Below, one piece after another: positions 1 through 6,692 of a stretch of 20,767 nt of DNA. A model generated the notes under the pieces. It worked only from the letters and a program-made list of their open reading frames with translations, made no database searches and was not told where the DNA came from. Origin of the DNA: a virus. The position numbers were made by a program, and so were the translations under genes. Position 1 is the stretch's first letter. Every line of letters begins with the position of its first letter. The stretch spans positions 1 through 20,767 of the IMG/VR virus record IMGVR_UViG_3300032086_003702. One strand, 5' to 3'.

Positions 1-852
1 AAAGGGTTTGACCACATTTTTGTTGGTTTTGAACACGTCATCGAACATACCTCCACTGGTAATATCCCAATCCCCCTCAAGCCAAGCTTTACGCTTGTTA
101 GGGTCAGTAATGGATTCTAATTCTAAAACGTACTCCGGTGATAAATACTTGTTGTCCTTGTAGGACATGAAAAGGTGAACGAATGACTTGCGTAAAATCT
201 CTTTTTTCTGAGTTCTTGGATTAAAAATCTCAGCTTCTTTGTAAAAAATCTCACCAGACTCAGCCTTGTCGATGAATTTTTGCTTAATCCAATTTCGACC
301 AACGCCGTATGGGTTAGTGGTTGATAGCACCACCAAGGGGATTTCTGGCAGTATTTTTACACTACCGTCAGCCATCTTTATGGGGTTATCTTCGGGAATG
401 AACGATGTTCTGTTGCAAGACATGATCATATCGTATAAACTACCATTGGGGTTCTTCGTCAATTCGTTATGTCCAATATAAGCGTATTCATGGCCGTGAT
501 AACGCCAGTAGTCTTCTTCTTTAGCCAGTGTGCGGAAGAACAGCTCTTCGCCAGTTGGCCACACCCATTTTAACTGACTGTTGTTAGCAAGAAATCTCGC
601 ACCGTCTTTAAATTGTGGGAACCAACGTCGAGACTTCGCAATCAAATCTTCAAGGTTTTTATATTCTCGATCAAATATAATTCCACGCCAAGCGTGACCA
701 TAACCCTGCCCTACGAATCGGCGGAAATACATCAACTGAACGTCAGATTTACCAGAACCACGAGTTCCATGTAGCAATATATGGTTGCAAGGGCAGTTTA
801 AAGCAAGCCCTTGGTTTCCCTCAAGAGCTTGCCATATTACCTTTTTAGCCAT
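1..852 (-). CDS. terL: Terminase large subunit, 3' end cut off by the window edge
   Basis: This is the N-terminal 284 residues of the packaging motor, which pumps DNA into the prohead with ATP and cuts the concatemer. The frame is open to base 1, so the C-terminal nuclease domain is mostly outside. Visible ATPase motifs are Walker A GTRGSGKS (about residues 29-36), a Walker B region YIGHNEL (125-131) and a coupling motif LSTTNP (176-181). The aspartate normally before the catalytic glutamate is asparagine here. The ATG at 852 begins MAKKVIWQ and overlaps the upstream 83-residue gene by 8 bases; the ribosome binding site is weak (AGGTAGC), so translation may be coupled. The order small subunit, holin, two small genes, large subunit recalls the mixed lysis and packaging clusters of T7-like phages. 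Family assignment is firm; subtype is not determined. Confidence 0.9.
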   Translation of the reverse strand, partial: MAKKVIWQALEGNQGLALNCPCNHILLHGTRGSGKSDVQLMYFRRFVGQGYGHAWRGIIFDREYKNLEDLIAKSRRWFPQFKDGARFLANNSQLKWVWPTGEELFFRTLAKEEDYWRYHGHEYAYIGHNELTKNPNGSLYDMIMSCNRTSFIPEDNPIKMADGSVKILPEIPLVVLSTTNPYGVGRNWIKQKFIDKAESGEIFYKEAEIFNPRTQKKEILRKSFVHLFMSYKDNKYLSPEYVLELESITDPNKRKAWLEGDWDITSGGMFDDVFKTNKNVVKPF

Positions 853-1096: not shown

Positions 1097-1289
1097 GGTT
1101 TAACCCTCTATGAAATATAAAATACTTTAATTGAGCTGATACTATAGGCGCCCAGAACAGGCAAAGTGAAAATAAGCATTGAGAATTGTAATTACTATGA
1201 ATTTGCTGAAGCGGAACTGTTGCTGCAATTACCCACACTAAGGGTGATAGCATCAAACTGGCTAACAACAGCTTGGTATTATCGGTCAT
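1077..1289 (-). CDS. Small membrane protein next to the holin
   Basis: A 70-residue protein with two hydrophobic stretches, about residues 8-27 (LLLASLMLSPLVWVIAAT) and 39-59, and a basic C-terminus (RGLNRVRITR). The ATG at 1289 lies inside the end of the holin gene, overlapping it by 11 bases, with AGGTG just upstream. The pairing of a small two-segment membrane protein with a holin suggests a second holin, an antiholin or another lysis accessory protein. This is inferred from topology and position only; I recognise no family. Confidence 0.6.
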   Translation of the reverse strand: MTDNTKLLLASLMLSPLVWVIAATVPLQQIHSNYNSQCLFSLCLFWAPIVSAQLKYFIFHRGLNRVRITR

Positions 1290-1599
1290 CTTTTACACCT
1301 AATCCAAATTTGTCTTTGAACACTTTCAACATGATATTGGCGGCGTTAGACACCCCGAACCATCCCATTAGAAACACGATAACGATGCTCCACCACAAAC
1401 CCAAATCAAATTGAAAACATAATGCTATTGTAGCAATACCACCTACTTTAGCTGCCAACCATTCAACGAAACAAACCTTGAAGGTTATCTCTTGATCATC
1501 GTTAATACAACGCATCAAATGTGCAACTAAGCCTGAAAAACCAGCAAAAACCGATAACATTATCAGCGTGTAAACGGTTTCAAAGTTTAAAGCTTCCAT
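1279..1599 (-). CDS. Holin, LydA/phage_holin_3-like, three membrane segments
   Basis: A 106-residue membrane protein with three predicted transmembrane helices, at about residues 10-29, 45-62 and 68-92, and a charged C-terminal tail (KDKFGLGVKDDR). The arrangement, including FAGFSGLVAHLM in helix 1, a central Gly-rich helix (AAKVGGIATIA) and a last helix with GWFGVSNAANIML, fits holins of the LydA/HP1 type that form the membrane lesion releasing or activating the endolysin. The start ATG overlaps the stop of the small terminase gene (TAATG) and has AAAGGA upstream. The endolysin is encoded about 6.6 kb away beside the primase, so lysis genes are split. The holin call rests on topology and pattern, without a database match. 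Confidence 0.75.
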   Translation of the reverse strand: MEALNFETVYTLIMLSVFAGFSGLVAHLMRCINDDQEITFKVCFVEWLAAKVGGIATIALCFQFDLGLWWSIVIVFLMGWFGVSNAANIMLKVFKDKFGLGVKDDR

Positions 1600-2138
1600 T
1601 ACTTGTCCTTTAACACCTTACTATGTTCTATAGCTTTGGCCTCCCATTCTTCTTCACTTTTCACAGAATCAACAATGAGTACGCCCCCGACATCTTCATC
1701 TTGGCCGTCATCTTCTTTCTTGCCAATTTGAAAACCCTCATTAAGCATACCGTGACTTCGAGCTAGAATGCCTAATGCTGTAACTCTAGCAGCATGTGAG
1801 GAGCCTCTACCTCTATCTGAAGCTTCTCTTAACAACCTCGCACGAATTTTACGTTGCCACTGCTCTTGCTCGCTAAGTTTTGAATCTTCAGAGAACTCAT
1901 CGTTAAGCGGGTTAAGCTTTGCACCGCACTCCATTTGGCGAATGAATCTTAGCGTCATAGGGTCGCGCAATAGACGCTCACCTATGAGAGAAGCCTTACT
2001 TTCGCTATATCCGCAACCGATGGCCGCAAGCTCAGCGTCATAGCAATTGATGTATGATTTTGCGAAATTCTCACACATTCTCAGCTCTAATTCTGAGTAG
2101 TGTCGTATTCCATCTGGGACTTCAATTTCATCAGACAT
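1599..2138 (-). CDS. terS: Terminase small subunit
   Basis: A 179-residue protein resembling Terminase_2-type small subunits, which bind the packaging site and load the large subunit. The N-terminal part carries the typical pattern: FAKSYINCYDAELAAIGCGY (about residues 25-44), then SESKASLIGERLLRDP and a following hydrophobic position. This is a helix-turn-helix DNA-binding core. The middle (77-130) is rich in charged residues and likely forms oligomerisation helices; the tail is acidic and Lys-rich. The start ATG at 2138 lies four bases after the stop of the nuclease gene and has no convincing Shine-Dalgarno sequence, which suggests translational coupling. The stop overlaps the holin start. 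Confidence 0.85.
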   Translation of the reverse strand: MSDEIEVPDGIRHYSELELRMCENFAKSYINCYDAELAAIGCGYSESKASLIGERLLRDPMTLRFIRQMECGAKLNPLNDEFSEDSKLSEQEQWQRKIRARLLREASDRGRGSSHAARVTALGILARSHGMLNEGFQIGKKEDDGQDEDVGGVLIVDSVKSEEEWEAKAIEHSKVLKDK

Positions 2139-2141
2139 ATT

Positions 2142-2597
2142 TTAACCAATAGCTTTAAAATAATTCTTCATTTTAGCTCTTAATATAACTTCGAAATCTT
2201 CTAAAGAAACTTCAACCCTACATATATGGTTAGGGCAATTGGTGAAAGATATAAAGCCATCAATTATAACTTTCCAAGGCTTTCTGTTTTGACGATAAAC
2301 TAAAACAGGAATTGCACCCTCTTCACTTGCAGCTTTTAAACACTGCTTCCACCAAGTGTTAACACTTAACTGCTCTTGACGCTTAACCTCAATAGACAGT
2401 CCGAATGGGTTGGATAAATCAGAACCTCCAACGGCAGATTGATTCTGATTTCTTTGGAATGGATAGGGTATTTCTTCAGACTTATAAGGATTGTGGGCAT
2501 ATAAATCTTGTAAAACTTCATCCACAATCTTATTCCAACGAGTGGCGATTTCTCGCTCACCCGTCTGCCCTTTTGTACGAACGTTAATACGGGGCAT
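2142..2597 (-). CDS. PD-(D/E)XK nuclease, possible Holliday junction resolvase
   Basis: A 151-residue protein with the hallmarks of a small restriction-fold nuclease. GQTGEREIATRW near the N-terminus gives a conserved Glu (about residue 15), VGGSDLSNP gives the metal-binding Asp (about 60), and SIEVKRQE gives the E-x-K catalytic pair (about 70 and 72). Many phages carry such proteins to resolve branched DNA before packaging, which suits its place just upstream of the small terminase gene. The ATG overlaps the csrA stop (TGATG), with GAGGAT upstream; a TTG one codon earlier is possible but less likely. Nuclease fold is well supported; Holliday junction activity is inference, and another structure-specific or single-strand nuclease role is possible. 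Confidence 0.75.
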   Translation of the reverse strand: MPRINVRTKGQTGEREIATRWNKIVDEVLQDLYAHNPYKSEEIPYPFQRNQNQSAVGGSDLSNPFGLSIEVKRQEQLSVNTWWKQCLKAASEEGAIPVLVYRQNRKPWKVIIDGFISFTNCPNHICRVEVSLEDFEVILRAKMKNYFKAIG

Positions 2598-2824
2598 CAA
2601 TCATCCTCACTCAATGGGTTGGCATCATAACCATGCTTATATCCTTTCGGGTTTTGATCCCTTTCCATTTGGATTCGCTGATAAATTTCCTCCCTGTGAA
2701 CTGCAATATCTCTCGGAGCATTAACACCAATTCGAACTTGGTTTCCCTTAACACCCAAAACGGTAACAGTCACTTCGTCACCTACCATAAGGGTTTCACC
2801 AATACGACGTGTAAGAATCAACAT
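2597..2824 (-). CDS. csrA: CsrA/RsmA-family translational regulator carried by the phage
   Basis: A 75-residue CsrA. The family forms a swapped dimer that binds GGA in RNA hairpin loops and usually represses translation by covering the ribosome binding site. The sequence begins [20 protein letters not shown] and continues through [14 protein letters not shown] and [11 protein letters not shown], so the RNA-contact residues near the N-terminus (LILTRR) and the VHREE segment with Arg44 are present. Compared with the 61-residue Escherichia coli protein as I recall it, the core is nearly identical, and the phage version adds about 14 residues (a Gly/Asp/Asn-rich tail). An in-frame ATG at 2842 is rejected because AAGGAA lies within that extension, correctly spaced for the ATG at 2824. 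It sits between the beta-helix gene and the nuclease gene. Confidence 0.96.
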
Positions 2825-2834
2825 AACAATTTCC

Positions 2835-4502
2835 TTATTCAATAATTACTGATTTTAAACCTTCTCCGTTAGTCTTATCGTAAGACTCACCAAAATCTTT
2901 AAATGGTACTGGTACAGAAGGTAAATTTAATTTAAACACATTACCCGAGAAAACTTTTTTACCTTTAACGTTATCATCGGTTAGGGTTCCGTAATCCAAC
3001 TCTACGAAATAATGGAAGGGTAGTAACTGACTTTTTGATTCTTGATCATTGAGAAAAGTGTTATCCCTAACCACACTTTCACTATAGCTCAATCGCAGAC
3101 CGTATATAGTGTTAGAAGACGCCTTTAATGTGTTCTTTTCGATTAACAGCTCACCTTTTCCAGCGATTGTCTGACGATTCATTGTTGCGGCACTTAGGAT
3201 AACGAACCCACCATTCAACTGATTTTCAGTAATAGAGCCTGAGAAACCAGAATCACCGCCTTGGTGGAATCGTAAAGGTGGATTATGACCTTTACCGTCA
3301 CTACTCCAACCCGTGGTAGAAGTGAAGACGTTTTGATGGATACCAGTATTAGCGCTCCATTGCTGTCTGAACGATGAGTGGTCAGCCCAACGAGGTTCGC
3401 CCCCACGCTTACCACCACCACCGGAAACAGCTTGGGGGTTTTGCTGGAAGTCATTACCGGCAACAATGAAGTTAGCACCTTTCTCAAACTCGGTTAACTT
3501 ACCGTCCTTGCTTTCATCGTAATGCTGAGCGTAAACGCCGTAATCATGCCAGTTGGTAGAGAAGTTATCAGCGATAACTGTATTCAATCCAGACGTGGTA
3601 AAAACACCCTTGTTCAGACCAATAAAGCTACTTCGATAAACAGTCAGGTCTGACACGTTAAATGTTGTAACTCCGTCGGTAGACCAAGTAGAACCCTTGC
3701 CGGTGACCGGACTGTAATTACCTTTAAACACAATACCGTAGACCGTCACGTTCTCGGATCGACTAAAAGACAAAGCTGATCCGATGGGGTTATCTATGAC
3801 CACGGTGGCTAATCCGGTAGAACCTATGACCACATCCTTGGCACGATTGATAGGGGTGTCTGAGTCTAACTTGTGGGTAGTATTATCAAGAAGTAACAAT
3901 CTACCAGTTCTAGCTCTTTGAATGCGACCTAAGCCTTCTTCAAAGCTTGATACACGCTCACCTTGGTCACAGTTAACGCAATAGGTCTTACCCTTATAGT
4001 CTTCAACAGTGATCCAAACTTTAGCGACATCGTTACCGTCTTTAACGGAAACCTCATAGTTACCAGACTTACCGAACACATGGCCGACATGGAAACCGAT
4101 AGCTGAGTTGGAAGATTTACCCGTGCTTCTGAAAACAGAACCCTTGTCGGCAAAGTCCCATGTGAAAGTTCTGAATAGTCGATTGGGGGATTCTGCTGTG
4201 AAGTGTACGCCGCATGGCGCATAGCATTGAGTACGACTAGGTTTGATGGTGATGTCACCCCCAACCCCTACCGAGGCGGGCACAACACCCAAAGGTTCAG
4301 GGGCAACATCGGTTTTAATGATAGACTGCTTTTCTGATTGTTGTAGTTTTTCCCACAATGTTAGGGGTTGGCAAACAAGAACTTGCTCTTTATCTTCTAA
4401 GGTAAGGGTTTGACCTTTGGCTTTTTCTACTCCTATTATCGCCAAGCCGATGTAAACAACCATGGCCACTATACTTGCTGGAATTTTCAAAATATCTCGC
4501 AT
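2835..4502 (-). CDS. Exported PKD-domain and right-handed beta-helix protein
   Basis: A 555-residue protein with an apparent signal peptide ([20 protein letters not shown] then [10 protein letters not shown], with a plausible cut near residue 30). Residues about 83-168 match a PKD domain, with the WDF signature at 115-117 and a closing [18 protein letters not shown]. From about 190 to 520 the chain has repeating short strands with Asn, Gly and Val typical of a parallel beta-helix, as in pectate lyases and tailspikes. At 329-340 [12 protein letters not shown] matches an EF-hand or dockerin-type calcium loop. AAGGAGA precedes the ATG at 4502. It lies between the DNA polymerase and csrA, away from tail genes. 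It could be a secreted polysaccharide lyase or adhesin, or a virion spike; the signal peptide favours export. No catalytic residues could be assigned. Confidence 0.75.
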
Positions 4503-4514
4503 ACAAATTTCTCC

Positions 4515-6692
4515 TTAAAATGGTAAATCTTCTTCAACAATACCCAAGTCTATCAAAGCAGACTTAGCTATACTCACATACTTAGCATAATCAATATCGC
4601 TGGGAAATTCTTCAGGTAGCTCCTGAACGCACTTAGCGCCATCGGACATAGGCACCTTATTACCACTCTTTGCGTAAATCAGGTTCCCTGTAACTTCAGT
4701 CGAATAGTAAAATCGAACCACTTTACCTAAGAATATTCCATTATATTTCTGAGTCAGCGCACCTCCTGTGACTTTCCTTAGTGTTAAAAATTTAGATAAA
4801 TCTTTGCATTTAGTTATGGTGTCTTCGACGGGGACATTATCCGAAACATAAGCACTAACAGCTTCAGCGATAATGCTATTTGCTTGGTTCTTTTGGAGTC
4901 CTGCCTCAGCGTAAACACCTTTACGCTTAACTTTACCTGAGTCGGTAAAAGCTAAATAGTTATTAACATCACGGCTTGATAGCTGTTTATATGAGCTTTT
5001 CTCAAGCTTGAATTGGGTCAGTTCTTGCCACTTATCAAGTATCTTGTTGGTTATTTCACGCTTGTGCTTCGGAACCTTCATTACGATGCCGTCAGTGTTC
5101 GCACTAACAACGCTAATGCCGTTATGCTCCAACAACTCAATAAGCATTAGCAGGCTAAGTTGACCCGTTAATGTCACTTGAATCAAGAACTTAGGTGCAA
5201 AAAGCGGGCTGTAGGGATCGCCGAACAGACCAAAGCTTGAGTTAATGACAATCTTGAGGGAATCCCTAGCGACGCAAGCATCTTCATATCCTGAATCAGC
5301 ACCAACACTACCGCAAGCCTCAAGCTTTTTAGCTTCAGCCTTAGCTTTTAACCGATTATCGACAATACCCTTATAAATGGGCTGGAAAGCATAACCAATA
5401 TGTTCGGGTGCATACTCATTGTTAATAATAATTTTCGGGTAGTAAGATTCGACATCCCAGTCTTCGAGGTCATAATCTTCATCATTATTGTGGGTAGTGG
5501 ATTTCTCCATGCTATGTAATCCACCAATACCCAAATTATATCGAGTGTTTCCAATTTCAATCACTTCATTAGCGATTACTTCAGGTAGCAATACTTTATT
5601 AGAATGAGAAAGGCTAAAGTTCGAACTCAATATAGACCTGAAAACCTTCCTCATATTATCAGTGCCAAACCTAATGTATTCTGGCGGATCATACTTGAAG
5701 CTGAACGAAAACGGGTTGATTGTTGGAGGCTTAGGCCATCTTCCGGTGGCATTCTTTACCGCATTACAGATTACAGCTTTAGCGATACCCGCATCCGACT
5801 TACACATCAGATCAGAACCAAACTTCTTACCCATATCATGACGTAGCTTGATTTGAGGTTTTAGCGCATCCATTAACGTGTGAGTACTGTCCAAGTCGTT
5901 AAAGCAATACATACCAGTTATCGTCATTTGTCGCTCAGTTAGAACCTCATTTGGGTCAAAAGGTAAATCCATTATCGACCTAGCGCCAGCGCGCCCAGCA
6001 TAGATTTTTAGGCTTCCTGACTGGGGCGCAATCTCCATGAGGTCAATATGTCTAATGCCAGATTGAACGACAAAGCCAAACTTATTAGCAATCTCACCGT
6101 CTCGCATCGAATCATTAATGTGGGCATCGGTAATAGCTTTTAATCGAGCATTTAAGAACTCATCACCTTCTAATCCACAAGCAGCCGAAATCATTAAGTT
6201 GTCGTATTTGGAGCTATTGAAACCAACATGGGTAAAATTTTTAGCAAGCCATTTAACCATTTTAAAGTTAAGCGTCTTACCTTCATAGTGCTCCAATAAT
6301 AGGTATTTACCCACACTAGGGAACTTGTAACCGATGGCAAAGTAATTTTTATAACACTCGACATCGAATATAACGATACCTGAATTTTCCAATATATCAT
6401 TAAGTTCAGACGGATGAGTAATCATATTGTTTTGGTAAAACCCGTTAAACCTGCTTGGTAGGTTTTTAGGCACATAGCCAGCTTCTTTCCAAAATTCAGG
6501 CGGCTTTATCTTTGATTCTTTATCGACCTCATGCTTAGTTATCGTATAAGCCTCGGTCATTAATTTTTTTTCATTACCTCTAGTCCATATAGCATGGCTC
6601 GACTCTTTCCAACCATTTTGCAATAAGAAAGCTTTACGCTTTTTATTTGTTTCAGATTCGTAGTCCCAGAAAAAACCCTTATCAATATTCAT
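4515..6692 (-). CDS. Family B DNA polymerase with proofreading exonuclease
   Basis: A 725-residue replicative polymerase. The 3'-5' exonuclease motifs are visible: Exo I FDVECY (109-114), Exo II HVGFNSSKYDN (155-165) and Exo III YCFND (262-266). Polymerase motif A is DVESYYPK (413-420), motif B KIVINSSFGLFGD (480-492) and motif C SANTDGIV (530-537). The essential motif C Asp is retained (534), while the first Asp of the usual DTD is Asn. A KxY-like element, KRKGVY, occurs at 589-594. Its ATG overlaps the stop of the clamp-like gene (ATGA), so the two are probably made together by coupled translation. The length is short for the family, and I see no terminal-protein-type insertions clear enough to call protein priming; with a PrimPol and a clamp in the same operon, RNA or DNA priming is more likely. 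Confidence 0.92.
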   Translation of the reverse strand: MNIDKGFFWDYESETNKKRKAFLLQNGWKESSHAIWTRGNEKKLMTEAYTITKHEVDKESKIKPPEFWKEAGYVPKNLPSRFNGFYQNNMITHPSELNDILENSGIVIFDVECYKNYFAIGYKFPSVGKYLLLEHYEGKTLNFKMVKWLAKNFTHVGFNSSKYDNLMISAACGLEGDEFLNARLKAITDAHINDSMRDGEIANKFGFVVQSGIRHIDLMEIAPQSGSLKIYAGRAGARSIMDLPFDPNEVLTERQMTITGMYCFNDLDSTHTLMDALKPQIKLRHDMGKKFGSDLMCKSDAGIAKAVICNAVKNATGRWPKPPTINPFSFSFKYDPPEYIRFGTDNMRKVFRSILSSNFSLSHSNKVLLPEVIANEVIEIGNTRYNLGIGGLHSMEKSTTHNNDEDYDLEDWDVESYYPKIIINNEYAPEHIGYAFQPIYKGIVDNRLKAKAEAKKLEACGSVGADSGYEDACVARDSLKIVINSSFGLFGDPYSPLFAPKFLIQVTLTGQLSLLMLIELLEHNGISVVSANTDGIVMKVPKHKREITNKILDKWQELTQFKLEKSSYKQLSSRDVNNYLAFTDSGKVKRKGVYAEAGLQKNQANSIIAEAVSAYVSDNVPVEDTITKCKDLSKFLTLRKVTGGALTQKYNGIFLGKVVRFYYSTEVTGNLIYAKSGNKVPMSDGAKCVQELPEEFPSDIDYAKYVSIAKSALIDLGIVEEDLPF

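Follow-up and report, generated by a model that had tools for sequence, protein, structure and literature searches.

A predicted Sec-exported PKD/β-helix protein encoded between the DNA polymerase and csrA genes of a Queuovirinae-like siphovirus

A 20.8 kb viral record (20,767 nucleotides; IMGVR_UViG_3300032086_003702, hereafter the window), which is a fragment of a Queuovirinae-like siphovirus, encodes a 555-residue protein with a predicted Sec signal peptide, a PKD domain and a right-handed parallel β-helix. The gene lies at 2835..4502 on the minus strand, as do all the features of the window located below, and it starts with ATG. The Shine-Dalgarno sequence AAGGAG just upstream (4511..4516) overlaps the end of the polymerase gene. 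The coordinates given for this open reading frame in the initial annotation are exact, and its observation of a signal-peptide-bearing PKD/β-helix protein at this place is confirmed. We judge the chance to be slightly better than even that the protein is a cargo exported late in infection, which would act on envelope or matrix polysaccharide, and is not a virion spike.

Does the protein carry an export signal? The predicted signal peptide comprises residues 1-30 (4413..4502). It consists of a basic n-region (MRDILK), a 19-residue hydrophobic stretch (mean Kyte-Doolittle value of 2.4 at residues 7-25) and a putative A-K-G|Q cleavage site at 30/31, and residues 9-28 form a helix in the structural model. 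Among the 27 non-overlapping open reading frames of the window, this one alone passes our signal-peptide rule, which is home-made, is not SignalP and is no substitute for it. As controls, 4 of the 133 open reading frames in related phages passed the same rule, as did 4.8% of the shuffles of the first 60 residues of the protein. The rule-based prediction thus bears out the earlier proposal of a signal peptide, and we consider this sequence evidence to be good. The segment may instead be an uncleaved signal anchor. No outer-membrane export signal was seen in the protein.

The domain structure was examined in an AlphaFold model built from an 11-sequence alignment (pTM 0.73). The PKD domain (residues ~79-168; 3999..4268) matches Pfam PKD (PF00801) with an E-value of 2e-4 and 21.6 bits, which is under the curated cut-off of 23.5. 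In the model this region is a confident β-sandwich, with pLDDT values mostly of 81-94, and the PKD motifs WDF(G/A)D and H(V/A)(F/Y) are present in the alignments. The PKD domains 1b4r, 1wgo and 4xed are among the weak Foldseek matches. The β-helix (residues ~173-486; 3045..3986) is modelled as coils of stacked parallel strands at 173-485; its Foldseek matches are right-handed β-helices, and it has a weak sequence match to NosD (E 0.0025). Both assigned domains are therefore upheld, the helix mainly through the model. The C-terminal tail (residues 487-555; 2838..3044) is predicted to be disordered, with pLDDT values mostly of 25-35 in the last 60 residues. The EF-hand-like loop that had been noted at residues 329-340 (3483..3518) does exist as a pattern: it matches the PS00018 core, with the 12-residue D-x-[DNS]-x-[DNS]-G arrangement, which has a chance of 0.3-0.8% per protein of this composition. 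However, the loop lies in an insertion absent from the aligned homologues and is not structurally defined, with pLDDT values below 50 at 331-341.

The gene is located 12 nt downstream of a family B DNA polymerase gene (4515..6692; phrog_1252, E 2e-182). On its other side, csrA (2597..2824; Pfam CsrA, E 2e-24) has a probable ATG start, read from the sequence, at 2824, 10 nt past the stop of the PKD/β-helix gene. The position between polymerase and csrA is thus correct by gene calls. The description of the locus as a replication operon fits the upstream polymerase, but not the genes after csrA: a PDDEXK nuclease/resolvase-like gene (2142..2600; PF24608, phrog_244), the terminase small subunit gene (1599..2138; phrog_5334), a holin gene (1279..1599; phrog_785), two small genes and the terminase large subunit gene, which is cut by the window end (1..852; phrog_979). 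The locus is a junction of replication with lysis and packaging genes. The polymerase is ~40% identical to Queuovirinae polymerases, and the best identity of the large terminase, 65%, is to Alteromonas phage R7M; by sequence, these two proteins relate the window to Queuovirinae and Vibrio siphophages. An M15-type peptidase is also encoded, and searches of the window for RNA families and tRNAs found none. Among the phages that share its replication genes, the closest ones do not carry the PKD/β-helix gene, which is therefore accessory. A search for relatives of the phage by primase, helicase and terminase found no closer genome carrying the gene.

Where are the relatives of the protein? It has no PHROG and no match in cultured phages, either close or otherwise, and searches with its sequence alone retrieved no close relatives from viral contigs or genome contigs. 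The homologue search nevertheless found relatives in exopolysaccharide loci, diverse bacteria and uncultivated phages. Over its full length, it is matched best (24% over 540 columns) by a Jannaschia protein whose plasmid-borne gene belongs to an exopolysaccharide/exosortase locus. Four further relatives, also plasmid-borne, are found together with genes for glycosyltransferases, exosortase or other functions in envelope polysaccharide. Of the sampled genomes, 6 of the 150 Rhodobacteraceae (about 4%) and 4 of the 369 Gammaproteobacteria have a match, three of the latter being short PKD-region matches. A pattern search with RxxCxAPC hit 11 loci, and real relatives are encoded in 4 of them.

The maximum-likelihood tree splits the homologues into two clades with 100/99 support. 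Clade A combines proteins from Rhodobacterales exopolysaccharide loci with phage proteins encoded in structural or lysis regions, and hardly any of them has a signal peptide. In the second clade, signal-peptide proteins from Spirochaetes, Planctomycetes, Myxococcota and Curvibacter stand together with those of uncultivated phages (L024, L048, L053, L054 and the similar L050). The window protein groups with clade A, a placement that rests on a long branch, despite having a signal peptide and a CxAPC motif as in the second clade. It shares with the proteins of the second clade the presence of a signal peptide, their type of PKD domain and the Arg/Gly invariants of the helix, and with some of them CxAPC. 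With the Rhodobacterales locus proteins (Jannaschia W003 and others) it shares the NWxDYG, QNPxA, GWS and LR motifs; unlike the window protein, those proteins belong to biosynthesis loci, and none has CxAPC. An M..I.F.GF..G-type module begins the structural-region phage homologues, including the clade-A viral members L010 and L026, and most of the locus homologues, while the window protein has a signal peptide and a linker instead. As a separate observation, a GTA-type spike base gene (RCAP_Rcc01079 family; L021 7621-7926) in a Jannaschia locus with apparent glycosyltransferases is located just upstream of one of these PKD/β-helix homologues (genome copy).

The cysteines follow the distribution of the signal peptides in part. 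The CxAPC pair C93/C97 (4212..4226) is common to part of the signal-peptide homologues: each of the two columns holds Cys in 7 of 21 rows, none of which belongs to the 11 other clade-A members counted, nearly all lacking a signal peptide. Among the homologues with a settled N-terminus, CxAPC occurs only in signal-peptide members (L016, L019, L024, L048, L053 and L054). Since the signal-peptide members L015, L020 and L023 lack it, the cysteines mark a subset and not export as such. In the second pair, C175/C178 (3969..3980), the residue is Cys in 13 and 8 of the 22 rows, respectively, and in 3 and 0 of the 11 other clade-A rows.

In the helix, R201, G349 and R379 are invariant across the 22 aligned family members. 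R379 belongs to a DHxxxR motif (residues 374-379; 3366..3383). R479 is nearly invariant, and position 411 is Arg or Lys in 20 of the 21 members. No conserved acidic pair was found in the helix, where position 455 alone is mostly Asp or Glu (18/21), nor was a conserved catalytic Asp of the GH28/GH87 type. The conserved basic residues and the lack of an acidic pair lead us to lean toward a lyase-type or binding site over an Asp-based hydrolase, and our guess would be a lyase in which the invariant Arg/Lys residues do the chemistry. The closest solved structures found by Foldseek are GH87 glucanases, the AlgE4 epimerase, the RbmB lyase, the K1 capsule lyase and a PL6 lyase, followed by tailspikes, with query TM values of about 0.2-0.4 and 7-13% identity. 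On the model, the protein thus appears to be a carbohydrate-active β-helix at the level of fold and no more, and belongs to no recognised enzyme family. Sequence similarity to the polysaccharide lyases PL6 and PL29 was not detected, and phmmer against the PDB sequences to E 10 gave no match.

How might such a protein work? The product of this accessory gene would leave the cytoplasm of the infected cell via Sec; in the periplasm it would lose its signal peptide, and the cysteine pairs could form. In the mature protein, the PKD domain would be a binding or spacer part, and the β-helix that follows it would bind or cleave envelope or matrix polysaccharide. The protein would build up late, and would leave with the virions at lysis or via a type II system. 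Once released, it would benefit the progeny by removing capsule of the host, debris or biofilm matrix. Its mode of action would be that of a depolymerase in free form, or of an RbmB-like matrix lyase, and not that of a virion spike. The export and polysaccharide role, which the initial annotation had raised, is the best reading because the protein has a Sec-type signal, a cysteine pair restricted to signal-peptide members and no tail-attachment module, while its gene lies outside the tail clusters seen and its clade relatives are found in exopolysaccharide loci. Against this reading, the enzymes are matched at the fold level only, the N-terminus may be an uncleaved anchor, no outer-membrane export signal was seen, and the tree groups the protein with the clade whose other members mostly lack signal peptides.

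The main alternative, which we hold to be unlikely, is a virion-borne tailspike or fibre with a hydrophobic or cleavable N-terminus that serves as an anchor or stems from an unusual route of assembly. The clade-A phage relatives L010 and L026 sit in structural or lysis regions, and the β-helix fold resembles that of depolymerase spikes. Moreover, the premise that phage tailspike-type proteins lack signal peptides is too strong. In three uncultivated phage contigs, signal-peptide genes lie at the end of the structural cluster (L056 32-3831, IMGVR_UViG_3300020045_011308; L057 9870-14763; L058 11943-19001). They include fibre-like proteins, such as one with ISALPAASTPTGTEVLPCVQ shortly after a MKKLLTALVLALLMGTAHAA signal; two of the contigs have several signal-peptide genes in a row, and the N-terminus of one such product has no match in cultured phages. 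Several uncultivated phages also have genes for signal-peptide PKD/β-helix proteins close to where the structural cluster ends; in L024, the homologue gene ends this cluster, before a spanin-like gene. The signal peptide alone therefore does not separate virion fibres from exported proteins, and for this reason the virion alternative keeps some weight. Against it, the N-terminal attachment module of L010 and L026 is replaced by a signal peptide and linker, the C-terminal tail is predicted to be disordered, and the cysteine pairs are like those of the exported members. The gene also lies between polymerase and csrA, outside any tail cluster seen, although the tail genes of this phage fall beyond the window.

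Somewhat less likely still, the protein could be exported or membrane-anchored and change the envelope by binding rather than cutting, for superinfection exclusion or as a receptor mask. The predicted export evidence applies equally here, a signal anchor would hold the protein in the membrane, PKD domains are often binding modules, and the helix has no conserved acidic catalytic pair. However, the proteins known to mediate superinfection exclusion are usually small, and there is no sign of early expression for this gene, which is just upstream of the nuclease, terminase and holin genes. A periplasmic lysis accessory, which would act for instance on periplasmic or capsule-precursor polysaccharide for efficient envelope rupture, is improbable: a holin gene is in the same gene run and signal-peptide homologues lie near holin- or spanin-like genes in other phages, but the M15-type peptidase and the holin are already present, and no β-helix protein of this kind is known as a lysis factor.

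Compared with phage depolymerase tailspikes (CBA120 TSP2, DpK2 and the K1 lyase), with which it shares the β-helix by fold matches in the PDB and BFVD, the window protein has in addition a signal peptide, a PKD domain and cysteine pairs, and it lacks an attachment module and a place in a tail cluster. It also has the β-helix fold in common with secreted or periplasmic proteins, namely RbmB of Vibrio cholerae, PL6 alginate lyases, AlgE4 and AlgG; in contrast to these, it is phage-encoded, and the likeness is known from the fold alone, with no sequence similarity detected. Similar exported-looking proteins appear, from their sequences, to recur in other uncultivated viruses: signal-peptide PKD/β-helix proteins are encoded in five uncultivated phage contigs, at least three of them near holin- or spanin-like genes. 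In L054 and L050, these small neighbors were recognised by membrane segments and place only. It is a tentative possibility, which we would not yet bet on, that a class of uncultivated phages deploys Sec-exported, non-virion PKD/β-helix enzymes that clear host polysaccharide outside the cell around lysis.

Plaque halos are usually blamed on free tailspikes. If phages do make such an enzyme for export, they also spend resources on a tool that diffuses and attacks capsule or biofilm; this particle-independent, secreted matrix enzyme would be a clean target for testing. The finding also casts doubt on the routine labelling of all phage β-helices as tailspikes. What appears to be new, judging from sequence and model, is a secreted-type PKD/β-helix cargo in phages that is accessory, exported-looking and of a carbohydrate-active fold; the library searched held no paper joining PKD, β-helix, phage and signal peptide. 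Signal peptides are known from endolysins (PMC6116005).

We also considered an anti-matrix cassette with csrA, and rejected it, as the annotations around the csrA genes that we inspected in other phages show no neighbor of this type. The window csrA is closest by identity (80%) to Acinetobacter records, where the gene lies beside alaS and thrA in what looks like a chromosomal setting. The phage copy is therefore nearer to bacterial csrA than to other phage csrA genes.
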